Part shown: in pieces, positions 3,224-16,645 of the stretch | Layout of the letters: every line of letters starts with the position of its first letter | How positions within the stretch are numbered: the stretch's first letter is position 1 | DNA from: JAWLHK01 sp041690355 [NCBI: bacterium] | Lineage (GTDB): Bacteria; J088; JAWLBW01 | Direction of reading: 5' to 3' | Assembly: GCA_041690355.1 (NCBI GenBank) | Contig: JAWLHK010000007.1 | Span: 221,552-238,196 of the forward strand | DNA length: 16,645 bases | Translations under genes and position numbers: made by a program | Notes under the pieces: model-generated | The model's input: the letters and a program-made list of their open reading frames with translations, nothing else | Databases searched by the model: none | Told to the model about the DNA's origin: nothing

Positions 3224-3353
3224 CCTTGCCTCTCTCCGCGGCCTCCGTGCCTCCGCGTGAAACTGCCCTTTGACTACCGTGCATCCCCCTCTGGTGCCCC
3301 CTTCGGGGGAACGCATGCGGCACCCGGAGACCATGAGGGAGGGGGGCCCAGCG
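3224..3353. repeat. Direct repeat, right copy, downstream of the ars operon
   Basis: This is the partner of 58-185, in the same orientation and about 3.17 kb away. It begins with octamer words (TCTCCGCG, CCTCCGTG, CCTCCGCG at 3233, 3242 and 3250), continues with GTGAAACTGC, contains the same exact 24-base stretch (3293-3316) with a UUCG-type hairpin, and ends GGGGCCCAGCG (3343-3353). The ars operon lies exactly between the two copies. Confidence 0.7.
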
Positions 3354-3427
3354 CCCCACCCCCTCCCGCTGGCGTTCCCCGCGGAATTTGCGGATACTCA
3401 GAAGAGAACCCCGCGCGCGGAAGCTTC

Positions 3428-8059: not shown

Positions 8060-8935
8060 TCAGCCCTTGCAGATCAGGACGGGGAGCGGGCTCGCGCGAA
8101 GAAGTTCGCGCGTGACGCTCCCGAGGAACATGGCGCGGAGGGGACCCGATTGGGCCGCGACGCCGATCAGGTCGGCCTTCGTGCGCCGGGCTTGCGCGAG
8201 AATGGCGTCGGAAATCTTTCCGTCGGCCGGACGGGCCTCGACCACGACCGTGCGTCCCGCGAGCTGTCTGGCCGCGACCGACAACTTCCGTTCCGCCTCT
8301 TCGAGCGCCTGCTCCCAGGCCTTATCCATATCGCCCGTGAGGGCCGGCTGTCCGAGAATCGCCTGCGGCGGGGCGGCGTGAAAGAGCTGCAGGCCGAGCG
8401 TCGGCGGCAGGTGCGCGAGCTGCGCCAGCGCCCGCGTGTCGCGCTTGCCCAGATCGTGTGCGAAGACGAGCCGCTGCGGCGCTTCGGGAATGCGCGTGGT
8501 GGGATTCGCGACGAGCACCGGCAGGGTGGCGTGGTGGACGAACGTCTCGGCGAACGACCCGAGCATCAGCCGCTTGACCCCTTTTTTCGCATGCGAGAAC
8601 AGCGCGACGGCATCGGCCCCCTGTTCGCGGGCCCATGTATCGAGCCGACCCGCCGCTGCCTTCATCGACGCGCTCTCTTCTTCGACGACGGCGACGCGCC
8701 GCGGGGAGAGCGGCAAGCCGGCATCGGCCAGCGCCTTGCGCAGGAGCCCAAGCGGAAACTTTCCGAAGCGTTCTTTTTCGGGAACGTCGAACGCGGTGCT
8801 CAAGCGCGCCTCGCCGTGTCCCGCCACGTACACCACCTGCACGCCGTCCTTTCCGGCGAGCGCGGTGAGCATGCTGTACATCGGTGCAAGGGGGAGCTGG
8901 TTGTCGAAGGGGTCGATGGCCCACACGATCTTCAT
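8060..8935 (-). CDS. Universal stress protein, tandem UspA domains
   Basis: A 291-residue cytoplasmic protein made of two UspA domains in tandem. The first (about 1-145) starts KIVWAIDPFD and ends in GVKRLMLGSFAETFVHHATLPVLVA. The second (about 153-290) starts QRLVFAHDLG and ends in SGPLRAMFLGSVTRELLRASPLPVLI. The second domain keeps a glycine-rich pattern close to the ATP-binding G-2x-G-9x-G(S/T) signature (Gly264, Gly272, Ser273); the first is less complete. Such proteins are induced under starvation, oxidative or energy stress. The ATG at 8935 has no strong ribosome-binding site. The upstream region is a heptamer array that marks the edge of the repeat island, so its promoter is not clear. 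Confidence 0.85.
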   Translation of the reverse strand: MKIVWAIDPFDNQLPLAPMYSMLTALAGKDGVQVVYVAGHGEARLSTAFDVPEKERFGKFPLGLLRKALADAGLPLSPRRVAVVEEESASMKAAAGRLDTWAREQGADAVALFSHAKKGVKRLMLGSFAETFVHHATLPVLVANPTTRIPEAPQRLVFAHDLGKRDTRALAQLAHLPPTLGLQLFHAAPPQAILGQPALTGDMDKAWEQALEEAERKLSVAARQLAGRTVVVEARPADGKISDAILAQARRTKADLIGVAAQSGPLRAMFLGSVTRELLRASPLPVLICKG

Positions 8936-8956
8936 GGGTACTCTCGGGCGCGGGTG

Positions 8957-8996
8957 ATTCTTAATTCCTGATTCTTAATTCTTAACCGGCAAGAGC
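8957..8996. repeat. Left inverted end of the repeat island (heptamer array plus GGCAAGAGC)
   Basis: ATTCTTA (8957), ATTCCTG (8964), ATTCTTA (8971) and ATTCTTA (8978) are followed by GGCAAGAGC at 8988-8996. The reverse complement of this whole arrangement occurs at 9666-9706 (GCTCTTGCC, then AATCAGG words), so the two form imperfect terminal inverted repeats of about 40 bases around the four-helix-bundle gene. Confidence 0.65.
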
Positions 8997-9003
8997 AATA
9001 CTG

Positions 9004-9023
9004 GTGACATTATCGCACTCTTG
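9004..9023. repeat. 20-base direct repeat, copy 1
   Basis: This 20-base sequence, GTGACATT to ACTCTTG, is identical to 9134-9153. In both copies a heptamer array of the AAGAATT/AATCAGG type begins 25 bases downstream, so a unit of about 130 bases has been partly duplicated. Confidence 0.8.
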
Positions 9024-9048
9024 GAGTACGGGAAGGTCTTGTCGACTC

Positions 9049-9075
9049 AAGAATTAAGAATCAGGTATCAGGAAT
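9049..9075. repeat. Heptamer array AAGAATY/AGGTATC
   Basis: AAGAATT, AAGAATC, AGGTATC and AGGAAT run in 7-base register and lead straight into the hairpin at 9076. This is the same word family, in opposite orientation, as 8957-8984. Confidence 0.65.
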
Positions 9076-9130
9076 GCTCTACGGCGCGAACCCTTTGTTA
9101 CAGGCCGGCGCTCAGCTGGCGCCGTAGAGC
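9076..9130. repeat. Hairpin repeat, copy 1: degenerate duplicate of the OMP gene 3' end
   Basis: GCTCTACGGCGC (9076-9087) and GCGCCGTAGAGC (9119-9130) are perfect 12-base inverted repeats. The block matches 9707-9761, which includes the last codons of the outer-membrane protein gene. Here the corresponding minus-strand reading would be LYGAS then stop, a frameshifted remnant. It sits on the other side of the four-helix-bundle gene from the intact copy. Confidence 0.65.
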
Positions 9131-9133
9131 CAA

Positions 9134-9153
9134 GTGACATTATCGCACTCTTG
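9134..9153. repeat. 20-base direct repeat, copy 2
   Basis: Identical to 9004-9023 and 130 bases away. It is followed by a diverged spacer and the heptamer array at 9178. Confidence 0.8.
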
Positions 9154-9177
9154 AGTGCACAGCATGCGCTCTGCATC

Positions 9178-9204
9178 AAGAATTAAGAATCAGGAATCAG
9201 GAAT
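9178..9204. repeat. Heptamer array overlapping the four-helix-bundle gene end
   Basis: AAGAATT, AAGAATC, AGGAATC and AGGAAT in 7-base register. The array overlaps the 3' end of the minus-strand gene: its stop codon TGA (9199-9197) and last residues are made from repeat units. The same array, with GAATGCTC following, occurs at 9049 and 9683. Confidence 0.65.
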
Positions 9205-9586
9205 GCTCCGCTGCGCCTGCCGCGCGGCGGAGACTCTCCATCCAGCGATTCAGCTGGCGCCCAATCGAGTTGGCCCGGTCCATGAGATCACTGCGCTTCT
9301 CCTCCAGGTGCCCGTACCGCTCGTTGAGGCCGATCACATACAGCATGGAGCGGAACTCGCCGGCAGATCCGCGCGCCAGTTTAAGCGAATGAAGCAGGGC
9401 CTTGGTTGAGCGCCACTCGAATCCTTCGGCAATGTTGTTCGGGATCGAGAGCCCGGCCCGGGTCAACTGTATCCGCAGGTCTCCCTGATAATTGAAACTC
9501 CTGTCGTCACAGAGCTTGAATGCGCGATCGGCCAGTTGAATTGCGTCCTTCCAGACCGGTAAATCTTCAAACCGTGTGTATCCCAT
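9197..9586 (-). CDS. Four-helix-bundle protein (23S rRNA intervening-sequence family)
   Basis: A 129-residue, wholly helical protein of the family first found encoded in 23S rRNA intervening sequences; the Avd accessory protein of diversity-generating retroelements has the same fold. Diagnostic segments are FEDLPVWKDA (6-15), LSIPNNIAEGFEWRS (46-60) and LLHSLKLARGSAGEF (64-78). Members are thought to pentamerise and bind nucleic acid; the role of free-standing copies is unknown. The ATG at 9586 was chosen over 9610 because GGAGG (9596-9592) sits five bases upstream and the conserved sequence starts there. There is no rRNA and no reverse transcriptase nearby. The gene lies inside a repeat island with inverted heptamer ends, and its stop codon falls within one array. 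This suggests movement as a cassette. Confidence 0.85.
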   Translation of the reverse strand: MGYTRFEDLPVWKDAIQLADRAFKLCDDRSFNYQGDLRIQLTRAGLSIPNNIAEGFEWRSTKALLHSLKLARGSAGEFRSMLYVIGLNERYGHLEEKRSDLMDRANSIGRQLNRWMESLRRAAGAAEHS

Positions 9587-9605
9587 GGCAGCCTCCAATC
9601 GGCTC

Positions 9606-9635
9606 ACCATGCGGCAACCAGCACGGAAATGTCAA
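9606..9635 (-). promoter_or_regulatory. Possible promoter of the four-helix-bundle gene
   Basis: On the minus strand a perfect TTGACA (9635-9630) lies 18 bases before CATGGT (9611-9606), a poor -10. The expected transcription start is near 9600, about 14 bases before the ATG and just ahead of the GGAGG site. The good -35 and fitting distance support it; the weak -10 does not. Confidence 0.35.
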
Positions 9636-9665
9636 CAAAAAAGCGACGCGTGTTCTGGTTCTGAA

Positions 9666-9706
9666 GCTCTTGCCAACTCAAGAATCAGGAATCAGGAATC
9701 AGGAAT
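9666..9706. repeat. Right inverted end of the repeat island (GCTCTTGCC plus heptamer array)
   Basis: GCTCTTGCC (9666-9674) is followed by AATCAGG at 9683, 9690 and 9697 and by AAT. Reverse-complemented, it matches the left end at 8957-8996 word by word, with a few C/T and A/G changes. Together they delimit about 750 bases. Confidence 0.65.
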
Positions 9707-9761
9707 GCTCTACGGCGCGTTCGCGCTCTACAAGCCGGCGCTCAGTTGCGCGCCGTAGAGC
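9707..9761. repeat. Hairpin repeat, copy 2, overlapping the OMP gene 3' end
   Basis: GCTCTACGGCGC (9707-9718) and GCGCCGTAGAGC (9750-9761) are perfect 12-base inverted repeats that could act as a transcription-end hairpin for the minus-strand gene, although no T-run is present. The right arm encodes the protein's LLYGA segment. It is duplicated at 9076-9130. Confidence 0.65.
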
Positions 9762-10465
9762 AACGGTGCACCTGTAAAGGCGTAGTCCGCGTGAAGCGTG
9801 AGCGAGAGAAACGGGAGCGGATCGATCTTCAGGCCGGCAAACGCCGAGGGGATCGAGGCCGTGAGGTCTCCGGGAGCCGCGCCGCCGAGGGGGTCGGCCA
9901 TCGCCGCCTTGTAGCCGGCGCCGACATACGGCGTGACGAACGGAAAACCCTTGCTCAGCTCGGCCTGCGCGCTAACCGTCGACAGATCCGCGAAGTCGAT
10001 GCCCGAGGCCTGCGTATACGCGACCCGCACGCCGAACGCGGGCAGCGCGACGCCGTCTTCGAGCCAGCCCCACTTCAGCTCTGCCCCCCACCAGGTTTCG
10101 TCGCCGTCGAGCCGCCCGCCGTAGGCGCCGCCGACATCGAAGCCGAAGGGGAGCCCCTTCACGGCGCGCAGGTACCAGCTGCTCCAGTTGGCGGGTCCGC
10201 CCACGGCCTGCCAGTCAGCGCGGCCGGAGTCGAGGGAGGCGCCCAGGTAGCCGGCCCCCACGTCGAAGCCGGTCAGGCCGTACGGGTCCGCGTAATCCAC
10301 CACCGGAAACGAGAAGACCTGTCCGAGATCGCGCGCCAGATCCGCAAATTCCGCCTCGGTCAGCGGTACCTCGGGCGCCTGCAGATCGTCGGCGTGCGTG
10401 AGGGCGGGCCCTGCCGCGGCAAACCAGGCCGCGAGCGCCGCGGCGATCCGAGCCGTCTTCTTCAT
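9728..10465 (-). CDS. Putative outer-membrane protein, uncharacterised
   Basis: A 245-residue protein with a signal peptide (MKKTARIAAALAAWF..., cleavage predicted after ALTHA at residue 25). The mature part alternates polar and hydrophobic residues with many Gly, Tyr and Trp (GLTGFDVGAGY, KGLPFGFDVGGAYG, TWWGAELKWGW, FVTPYVGAGY), as expected for a beta barrel. I recall similar uncharacterised proteins with a GLTGFDVG...KGLPFGxDVG pattern, but cannot name a function. It ends in Leu rather than the usual C-terminal Phe. The ATG at 10465 was chosen because GGAGG lies five bases upstream and the signal peptide starts there; the frame opens at 10498. A TAGAAT box at 10502-10497 could be its -10. 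The last codons lie within the hairpin repeat that is duplicated at 9076. Confidence 0.75.
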   Translation of the reverse strand: MKKTARIAAALAAWFAAAGPALTHADDLQAPEVPLTEAEFADLARDLGQVFSFPVVDYADPYGLTGFDVGAGYLGASLDSGRADWQAVGGPANWSSWYLRAVKGLPFGFDVGGAYGGRLDGDETWWGAELKWGWLEDGVALPAFGVRVAYTQASGIDFADLSTVSAQAELSKGFPFVTPYVGAGYKAAMADPLGGAAPGDLTASIPSAFAGLKIDPLPFLSLTLHADYAFTGAPLLYGAQLSAGL

Positions 10466-10543
10466 GAGTCCTCCGGAAACGAAAGGGGAAAGATTCATTC
10501 TAGCGATTCCGGCCGCGGGCGAAAAGGCAGCGGACGGAGAACT

Positions 10544-11807: not shown

Positions 11808-12143
11808 TCACCAGTCGATGAAGCAGCCCGAACCCTCGAAATAGGCGGTGCGCAGGCTGTCGAACCGCACCTTCATCCGGCCGCAGTTGCGGGCGTGCTG
11901 CAGTTTGTCGCGGGGAGCGTCGGCAATGTTGATCTTGTCGACCCCGATGTCGTCAGGCCGATCGATCAGCAGCCAGGGACCGTCGGTGCGGCCGCTTTCG
12001 TAGGGAATGTTGAAATGGGTCTCGCTCTCGTAGTTGTAGACGGCATCGCCGTCTTCGAGGTAGCGATAATCGCCCCCGTACTTGTAGAGGCCGTACATGA
12101 GTGCGAGCAGGACAATGATGGCGCCGGCGATTTTGGGGAACAT
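11808..12143 (-). CDS. Small membrane-anchored protein, unknown
   Basis: A 111-residue protein with one N-terminal hydrophobic helix (about residues 4-18, KIAGAIIVLLALMYG) and a polar remainder that is probably periplasmic. The remainder has two cysteines (CGRMKVR and GCFIDW, close to the C-terminus) that might form a disulphide. I recognise no family. It directly precedes the Smr-DUF2914 gene on the same strand with a 10-base gap, so the two are likely one operon. Coding status is supported by the tight spacing, sensible topology and low-repeat composition, but no good ribosome-binding site precedes the ATG at 12143. Confidence 0.65.
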   Translation of the reverse strand: MFPKIAGAIIVLLALMYGLYKYGGDYRYLEDGDAVYNYESETHFNIPYESGRTDGPWLLIDRPDDIGVDKINIADAPRDKLQHARNCGRMKVRFDSLRTAYFEGSGCFIDW

Positions 12144-12189
12144 GCGTATACTCTACCACCGGGCGCGCACCGCGCGCATGGGTGGGGTG

Positions 12190-12217
12190 ATTCCTAATTC
12201 CTGATTCCTAATTCCTG
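12190..12217. repeat. Heptamer array ATTCCTR x4
   Basis: ATTCCTA (12190), ATTCCTG (12197), ATTCCTA (12204) and ATTCCTG (12211), followed by AGAAGCAAGA. This looks like a solo copy of the left island end at 8957-8996, where the array is followed by GGCAAGAGC. No partner end or inserted gene is visible here. Confidence 0.7.
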
Positions 12218-12308
12218 AGAAGCAAGATCGCGGGGTTTCCGAGCCGGTATTCGGCAAGCCCAGGATCGCAGGCCGCGCAAAGTGCGGGATGCGGCGCCCT
12301 TGCCGGAT

Positions 12309-16312: not shown

Positions 16313-16441
16313 CCGTTCGTGTCGAGCCGCCGGTCGAAGGCAGCGCCGGAAGCGACGGCGAGACAGGCACATGGATACCCAGGCGCGACCCCTCGCTGTC
16401 GCGCTCCTTTCCATTTCGCGCCGTCAGCTCGGGACGAACGG
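16313..16441. repeat. 129-bp structured repeat, copy 1
   Basis: The ends are inverted repeats: CCGTTCGTGTCGAGC at the left and GCTCGGGACGAACGG at the right, 13 of 15 positions pairing. Inside are two further inverted repeats, CGCCG/CGGCG (16344-16348 and 16356-16360) and GCGCGAC/GTCGCGC (16383-16389 and 16398-16404). The unit recurs at 16490-16618 with 7 differences in 129 bases. No open frame is conserved. Confidence 0.85.
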
Positions 16442-16453
16442 GAGGGGAAGCGC

Positions 16454-16474
16454 CGAGCGCTGAGCGCTGAGCAC
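16454..16474. repeat. Heptamer array YGAGCRC between the 129-bp repeats
   Basis: CGAGCGC (16454), TGAGCGC (16461) and TGAGCAC (16468). The same array restarts after copy 2 at 16631 and runs off the end of the window, so repeat plus spacer forms a 177-base tandem unit. Confidence 0.7.
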
Positions 16475-16489
16475 CGAGGAAGCGGGAAA

Positions 16490-16618
16490 CCGTTCGTGTC
16501 GAGCCGACTGCTGAAGGCAGCGCCGGAGACGACGGCGAGACAGGCGCATGGATACCCAGGCGCGACCCCTCGCTGTCGCGCTCCTTTCCATTTCGCGCCG
16601 TCAGCTCGGGACGAACGG
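16490..16618. repeat. 129-bp structured repeat, copy 2
   Basis: Same length and ends as copy 1; the 7 differences are all in the left half, and the right 60 or so bases are identical. The terminal and GCGCGAC/GTCGCGC stems are unchanged. Confidence 0.85.
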
Positions 16619-16645
16619 GAGGGGAAGCGCCGAGCGCTGAGCGCT

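Follow-up and report, generated by a model that had tools for sequence, protein, structure and literature searches.

An S23 four-helix-bundle gene among heptamer arrays: a probable small insertion cassette without a transposase and its relatives in many bacterial phyla

Introduction

The closest described relatives of the locus reported here are intervening sequences (IVS) of 23S rRNA genes that carry an open reading frame (ORF) of the S23, or four-helix-bundle, protein family. In Coxiella burnetii, the IVS (428 nt) contains an S23 ORF preceded by tandem GACAGAT heptamers, the number of which varies among strains; the source also describes excision of this IVS by RNase III, mentions inverted repeats and cites an older hypothesis of the IVS as a mobile element (PMC4990558). 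Here we analyze a window (the whole stretch of DNA studied, 16,645 nucleotides) from contig JAWLHK010000007.1 of the bacterium JAWLHK01 sp041690355, in which an S23 gene lies among heptamer arrays in a gap between two protein-coding genes, and we compare it with S23 loci in other bacteria.

Cyanobacteria contain heptameric short tandem repeats known as STRR. GGGAATC heptamers of Xanthomonas and Nostoc are intergenic 7-bp units, which in Xanthomonas often form convergent (inverted) pairs (PMC4692102), and TAACTGA heptamer repeats are described in Beggiatoaceae (PMC4679880). The arrays reported below resemble these repeats in being intergenic and built of 7-bp units. A word search of these two heptamer papers (PMC4692102 and PMC4679880) found "four helix" and "intervening" 0 times, and by this criterion neither has a link to S23.

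Another relative of the S23 protein is Avd, the accessory protein of diversity-generating retroelements (DGR), a related four-helix bundle; the resemblance between PF05635 and Avd is stated in a 2023 paper (PMC10053308). Scattered "four helix bundle" genes also appear in genome descriptions. In Flavobacterium, such a gene lies between guanylate kinase and nucleotidyltransferase genes (PMC5524665). Two are listed for a cyanobacterial genome as strain-specific, and one of these resembles a Chloroflexi protein at 67% (PMC8700078), a distribution that fits mobility. A literature word search, with most subscription journals and all bioRxiv preprints outside its coverage, found no published report tying S23 genes to copy-specific arrays.

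Results and Discussion

The S23 gene of the window is probably the sole gene of a small insertion cassette that lacks a transposase and is flanked on each side by an array of 7-9-bp units; where detectable, the two arrays are usually inverted, and their sequence is particular to the cassette. We assign this reading a probability of roughly 0.6, based on sequence comparisons, and the cassette is best read as kin to the S23-bearing IVS of 23S rRNA. A mobile cassette with heptamer-array ends, related to rRNA insertions and retroelements, had been proposed for this locus from the letters of the window alone. This original prediction is supported by inverted arrays in many phyla, by the occurrence of gene and arrays together at unrelated sites, and by gene gaps that occur both with and without the cassette. 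The window cassette appears to be real in outline and to be one instance of a wide, apparently undescribed pattern.

The predicted four-helix-bundle identity of the gene is well supported by matches to PF05635 (E 4.4e-20, 72.3 bits against a curated cut-off of 33.8) and TIGR02436 (E 1.2e-19, 70.5 bits against a cut-off of 24). A profile built from 48 family members recovered PDB entry 2gsc at E 3.5e-32, and the solved proteins matched by this profile are XCC0516 (2gsc) and 2rld. The window protein alone as a query returned no relatives in genome contigs, viral contigs or phages; matches on plasmids seeded the successful alignment. A search for relatives of the window organism gave weak matches in 12 of 41 genomes; in one phylum, 198 genomes yielded no match at E <= 1e-40, an empty result that is uninformative.

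Compared with the rRNA IVS of C. burnetii, the cassettes described here have the same protein family, a similar size and heptamers adjoining the S23 ORF. Unlike that IVS, they lie in gaps between protein genes and have arrays on both sides that are copy-specific. Such a cassette would work like an IVS placed between protein genes, and it is not an IVS by definition because it is located outside rRNA. An Rfam scan of the window gave no match and the neighbors of the S23 gene are protein-coding ORFs, hence this gene does not lie inside an rRNA gene. A conserved 23S motif, searched as an exact match only, was found in 0 of 353 loci; the link to rRNA therefore rests on the published Coxiella case. 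Similarity to miniature inverted-repeat transposable elements (MITEs) and insertion sequence (IS) elements lies in short length and inverted ends, and some pairs of inverted arrays without S23 look MITE-like. The cassettes differ from these elements in that no transposase was seen, the low-complexity array ends differ from copy to copy, and no target-site duplication was recognized.

Inverted arrays around S23 genes

We chose 80 S23 loci from assemblies that represent each species by one genome, with protein similarity as the sole criterion; ranked by similarity to the window protein, they are the best 80 among 568 confirmed candidates. A phylum was named for 77 of these, covering 26 phyla, with 25 loci from Bacteroidota. 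The 250 bp upstream were compared with the 250 bp downstream in 78 loci, L011 and L077 being dropped for short flanks. At a score of at least 20, inverted flanks were found at 47 of the 78 S23 loci, in 21 named phyla, compared with 17 of 233 control ORFs taken from these loci; the control ORFs are at least 150 aa long and S23 is shorter. Direct-copy flanks reached the same score at 6 of 78 S23 loci and at 18 of 233 control ORFs. Where flanks were periodic, the period was mostly 7 and less often 8 or 9.

The array units vary from locus to locus and, as judged by eye, also among copies within one genome. In five genomes, a copy's own arms scored at least 16 in 27 of 42 copies, compared with 23 of 344 combinations with arms of other copies from the same genome; at a score of at least 20, the corresponding numbers are 13 of 42 and 6 of 344. 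Across all 230 copies, 66 had inverted and 11 direct arms of their own at this score, and permuted partners reached it in 7 of 1147 cases; among the 154 non-redundant copies there were 57 inverted and 10 direct. When arms were treated as RNA duplexes, 74 of the 154 copies had own arms that paired better than any of 15 GC-matched foreign partners, with 9.6 expected by chance. The original prediction suggested looking for shared ends among genes of this family. Inverted arrays do recur around S23 in many phyla, but their sequences differ from copy to copy, and a search for identical ends would therefore have failed. The heptamer periodicity was also considered as a device that places stop codons in all frames, and this was rejected: stop codons close all three frames within 80 bp in 86 of 154 stretches upstream of the gene, and the fraction in mononucleotide-shuffled stretches is 0.58, showing no enrichment.

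Gene and arrays together at unrelated sites

Two S23 copies were taken to be at different sites if they have no common flanking ORF at E < 1e-8, and 300 pairs were scored in each larger bin of protein identity. Array similarity of different-site pairs stays near background until 50-60% protein identity (medians 12-13). The median then rises to 20.5 at 60-70% identity (110 pairs), 24 at 70-80% (7 pairs) and 29 above that (1 pair). Among different-site pairs at least 60% identical, 68 of 118 reach an array score of 20, compared with 3 of 118 after dinucleotide shuffling of the arrays. As further controls, DNA 150-290 bp from the gene reaches this score in 0 of 115 pairs and sampled pairs of 30-50% identity in 13 of 400.

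Both phyla are named for 66 such pairs; 46 of these are cross-phylum, and 25 of the 46 have an array score of at least 20. Examples are Omnitrophota and Bacteroidota (L046/L028, 64%), Moraniibacteriota and Bacteroidota (L081/L052, 68%) and Chloroflexota and Cyanobacteriota (L013/L016, 65%). Ten pairs from different sites within the same genome have at least 55% identity; five have an array score of at least 20 and five do not, and one of the five (L036/L131) is within one suf operon.

The same gene gaps with and without S23

Empty sites, which the original prediction had suggested looking for, are present in relatives as filled and empty versions of the same gene gaps in three settings: suf, thiolase-carbonic anhydrase and fadA-fadE. 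Filled gaps are approximately 0.4-0.6 kb. Operons were read in 40 of 58 cases for suf (one genus) and in 30 of 57 for fad. S23 was found in the sufA-sufB gap of 8 of the 40 suf operons, in sufC-sufD of two and in sufB-sufC of one; apart from 17 longer sufB-sufC gaps, described below, other gaps measure ~4-120 bp. The sufA-sufB gap of L190 contains only the S23 3' end and the downstream array, which reads as a deletion scar. The thiolase-carbonic anhydrase gap of another genus contains S23 in four of ten cases, 92-134 bp without S23 in five and 45 bp in one.

The fadA-fadE gap was compared in 30 congeners, of which 19 are filled with S23 (428-453 bp), nine have 21-27 bp and two have ~95 bp; L334, with a 95-bp gap, was counted as S23-less. 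On the fadE gene tree, the S23 state changes at least seven times. Sister pairs with full bootstrap support differ in S23 presence (L329/L347 and L340/L345). Filled sisters can also differ: the S23 proteins at fadA-fadE are only 49% identical in L325/L328 (support 100/98) and 46% identical in L348/L353 (support 92/60), the arrays of the latter pair being unrelated. Such low identity between sisters at one gap means that one cassette has taken the place of another, via new insertion or gap exchange.

Other sequences occupy some of these gaps. In the suf loci L185-L224, 17 of 40 operons have ~0.9 kb in sufB-sufC with no S23 match. The sufC-sufD gaps of L188, L191, L197-L200, L205, L207 and L210 carry another palindromic repeat (GTCATTCCCATGAAAATGGGAATCC...AGGAATGACA) where relatives hold S23 or heptamer arrays. 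S23-less gaps of ~55-135 bp (L315-L318, L323, L330, L334 and several sufC-sufD gaps) resemble a pair of short arrays in inverted orientation. These may be S23-less relatives of the cassette. When 13 S23-less inverted-array gaps were compared with S23 arrays, the best match exceeded six shuffles in some (for example, 26 against 18) and not in others.

The cassette in the window

The heptamer pattern ATTCYTRATTCYTRATTC, with up to two mismatches allowed, has 13 matches in the window, compared with a mean of 0.00 in 200 shuffles. The arrays are of the AATCAGG/CCTGATT type, and their positions are given in Table 1. The predicted imperfect inverted ends hold for the outer arms: 8948-8996 and ~9666-9718 are inverted copies that include GGCAAGAGC/GCTCTTGCC (alignment score 49). 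They do not hold for the arrays beside the gene, and the prediction had missed arrays 2 and 3. Both of these share the orientation of array 4, and array 1 alone is inverted; the left arm 8948-8996 aligns equally well, in inverted orientation, with array 3 (score 53). The predicted solo end of the same type is also present, with 12185-12227 matching 8952-8994 at 84%. For a transcript of the minus strand here, the predicted fold is better than that of 20 shuffled versions (z -7.7).

Table 1. Positions of the S23 gene, arrays, tandem blocks and hairpin within the window
Feature	Position	Strand	Remarks
Array 1 plus GGCAAGAGC	8948-8996	-	Inverted outer arm; heptamers at ~8957-8983
U1, putative S23-less (empty or excised) tandem version	8992-9136		8992-9087 resembles 9126-9216; 9032-9136 resembles 9663-9768
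Array 2	9044-9075	+	Within S23-less block U1
U2, putative filled version	9126-9768		Array 3, S23 gene, array 4
Array 3	9173-9204	+	Directly 3' of the S23 gene, whose stop codon it supplies; direct copy of array 4
S23/four-helix-bundle gene (PF05635)	9197-9610	-	Likely start ATG 9586 after GGAGG 9596-9592; alternative ATG 9610
Array 4 (AATCAGG-type units)	9675-9706	+	Upstream of the S23 gene; separated by 21 bp from the stop codon of 9728-10498(-)
Hairpin CTCTACGGCGCG..CGCGCCGTAGAG	9707-9762		One arm is the 3' end of gene 9728-10498(-); read by eye
Solo array of the same heptamer type	12190-12219	-	Upstream of ORF 11808-12143(-)

Two blocks in the window, U1 and U2, resemble each other in tandem. 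Their two matches have alignment scores of 101 and 133, while the maxima of 500 mononucleotide shuffles are 42 and 47 and the best score elsewhere in the window is 34. These matches overlap over 9032-9087, a stretch that contains an array, and U1 therefore reads as the site without the S23 gene, with U2 as the version that has it; the two are ~500 bp apart in length. U1 reads as either a never-filled or an excised version, and a single locus is compatible with both. A diverged copy of the hairpin is present at 9076-9131, and the duplication takes in the 3' end of the neighboring gene as well. Inclusion of this gene end in the tandem copies is what would be expected if the window structure were a local tandem duplication of array-bearing DNA that trapped S23 by chance. 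We consider this explanation, which concerns the window only, very improbable given that the layout of a gene among arrays recurs in many other genomes.

The S23 gene is in sense between two same-strand ORFs, 9728-10498 and 8060-8935. The latter encodes a universal stress protein; the protein of the former is without a Pfam match and is, by reading, of outer-membrane type. A separate promoter had been predicted for the S23 gene, and a scan of 8900-9800, limited to the sigma-70 type, found none. The Shine-Dalgarno-like GGAGG stands five bases ahead of the likely ATG, making translation from the transcript of the neighboring gene plausible. A Pfam scan that covered seven window proteins found no transposase. 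Elsewhere in the window, a direct repeat (156 bp, 96% identity, 177-bp spacing) occupies 16313-16645 and reaches the window end, and a dispersed repeat pair, 58-188 and 3224-3356, is 81-83% identical at a distance of ~3.17 kb.

Placement, selection and copy number

Of 154 non-redundant S23 copies, 119 are in sense between co-directional neighbors, eight are antisense, seven are between convergent and five between divergent neighbors, and for 15 no neighbor was found on at least one side. Neighboring genes are a median of 50 bp away on the upstream side and 43 bp on the downstream side. With a single gene caller, 56 of 67 S23 genes were in sense between tandem genes, compared with 24 of 55 ORFs no longer than 200 aa. 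In one genus, genomes have 0-13 S23 matches each and 38 of 40 are positive; 20 genomes picked for carrying S23 have 1-16 matches, and 14 named control genomes showed no S23 match. The protein is basic, with a median pI of 8.8. It is under purifying selection: the median dN/dS is 0.085 and the maximum 0.40 for 167 of 249 pairs, the other 82 having saturated dS and no ratio, and the pairs are not independent.

Two individual copies from Nostoc show further arrangements. On a Nostoc plasmid (L002), an S23 cassette with TAGGGAG/CTCCCTA arrays is antisense between two ribonucleotide reductase genes. In another Nostoc locus (L004), the S23 gene is seemingly split into two annotated pieces ~0.2-0.3 kb apart, with array-like sequence at both breaks as seen by eye. 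A role as an anti-phage defense gene was considered and rejected, PADLOC models matching 0 of 48 family members.

Several observations weigh against a mobile cassette. To our knowledge, no catalytic function is known for S23. Sense placement is common among ordinary ORFs as well (118 of 194 other ORFs). The inverted-array score is below 20 in 97 of the 154 non-redundant copies and below 16 in 68, and inverted arrays around S23 genes therefore appear to be frequent and not universal at the thresholds used; homologs at conserved positions without such ends, named in the original prediction as evidence against it, thus exist in part. In the window itself, arrays 3 and 4, which directly flank the S23 gene, repeat each other in direct orientation; in the best RNA fold, array 3 is the partner of array 1, a pairing outside the ORF in which array 4 has no part. 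Presence and absence were compared in gaps of other genera, and homologous exchange of flanks could yield both presence/absence and replacement at one site. No target-site duplication was recognized when filled and empty gaps were compared by eye; in filled gaps the bulk of the intergenic sequence has been replaced, so that none is readable, and empty gaps keep no clean target. The cross-phylum pairs depend largely on metagenome assemblies and on phylum names in record titles, and single cases may therefore be misassigned. Published accounts also bear on the question. The authors of the C. burnetii study regard the S23 protein as one that is not produced and its ORF as decaying and probably unexpressed (PMC4990558), unlike the S23 genes here, which are under purifying selection. 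The heptamers of Xanthomonas and Nostoc are reported as generally not associated with insertion sequences or transposable elements (PMC4692102).

Much of this would be expected if S23 were an ordinary small operon gene, for example an RNA- or DNA-binding regulator, beside generic intergenic repeats made by slippage, with presence and absence due to gene loss and homologous exchange. Purifying selection, the position in sense between co-directional genes, the many copies without a strong inverted pair, the array-like inverted repeats in several S23-less gaps and the abundance of heptamers in Xanthomonas and Nostoc intergenic DNA, reported there as unassociated with transposable elements, all fit such a gene. 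Generic repeats, however, would not be copy-specific, either across copies or within one genome, and would not accompany the gene to unrelated sites in other phyla, and the control ORFs of the same loci mostly lack inverted flanks. We therefore regard an ordinary operon gene as unlikely and prefer the insertion cassette.

Candidate movers

In the original prediction the element would be moved in trans. One version of this idea is a non-autonomous element mobilized by a resident IS200/IS605/REP-type transposase or, given the kinship of S23 with Avd, by a reverse transcriptase. The PHROG profile "Avd protein of DGR" matches 22 of 48 S23 members, and among 31 genomes (29 carry S23, two do not) a Y1 transposase was found in 20 and RVT_1 in 14, which is compatible with such movers. 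Y1 was undetected in the other 11, S23-rich ones included, and RVT_1 in the other 17. Both were undetected in six S23-rich genomes: G001 (9 matches), G004 (7), G029 (7), G047 (11), G050 (9) and G058 (10); the test covered these two families only and assembly completeness is unreported. With 7-11 S23 matches in genomes where neither was detected, a resident Y1 transposase or reverse transcriptase was rejected as a required mover. The part of the prediction that invoked movement in trans did not gain a mover, and we consider this explanation quite improbable, more so than an ordinary operon gene. The low detection of RVT_1 also separates the cassettes from DGR, as does the window, where no reverse transcriptase was found among the seven scanned proteins (template and variable repeats were not searched for).

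Proposed mechanism and implications

Movement of the insertion cassette and its chemistry are what we infer from these comparisons. The basic S23 protein, a relative of which is a pentamer, may recognize its own arrays in DNA or RNA and, along with host functions, promote spread of the cassette. The inverted arms could pair in the transcript, like the rRNA intervening sequences that RNase III cuts out, and this pairing would make insertion between operon genes tolerated. Recombination between arrays might delete the S23 gene and leave a solo array.

A broader and more tentative proposal, which we think somewhat less likely to be right than wrong, is that S23 and its arrays form a separate class of very small mobile element in many bacterial phyla. 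Its sole protein would be a non-catalytic four-helix bundle that recognizes its own cassette-specific 7-9-bp arrays and recruits host machinery, be it for RNA processing, replication or repair, by which the cassette is copied into operon gaps in the sense direction. The rRNA IVS and Avd would then be specialized branches, and many orphan heptamer-type repeats could be S23-less remains.

Genes for S23 or "four helix bundle protein" occur widely, as do intergenic heptamer repeats, and neither has an explanation. Linking them in one cassette would give the orphan S23 family a role. It would also offer an origin for the S23-bearing insertions in 23S rRNA and possibly for the Avd protein. Such a cassette may serve as a concrete model, open to testing, for mobile elements that lack a recombinase of their own.

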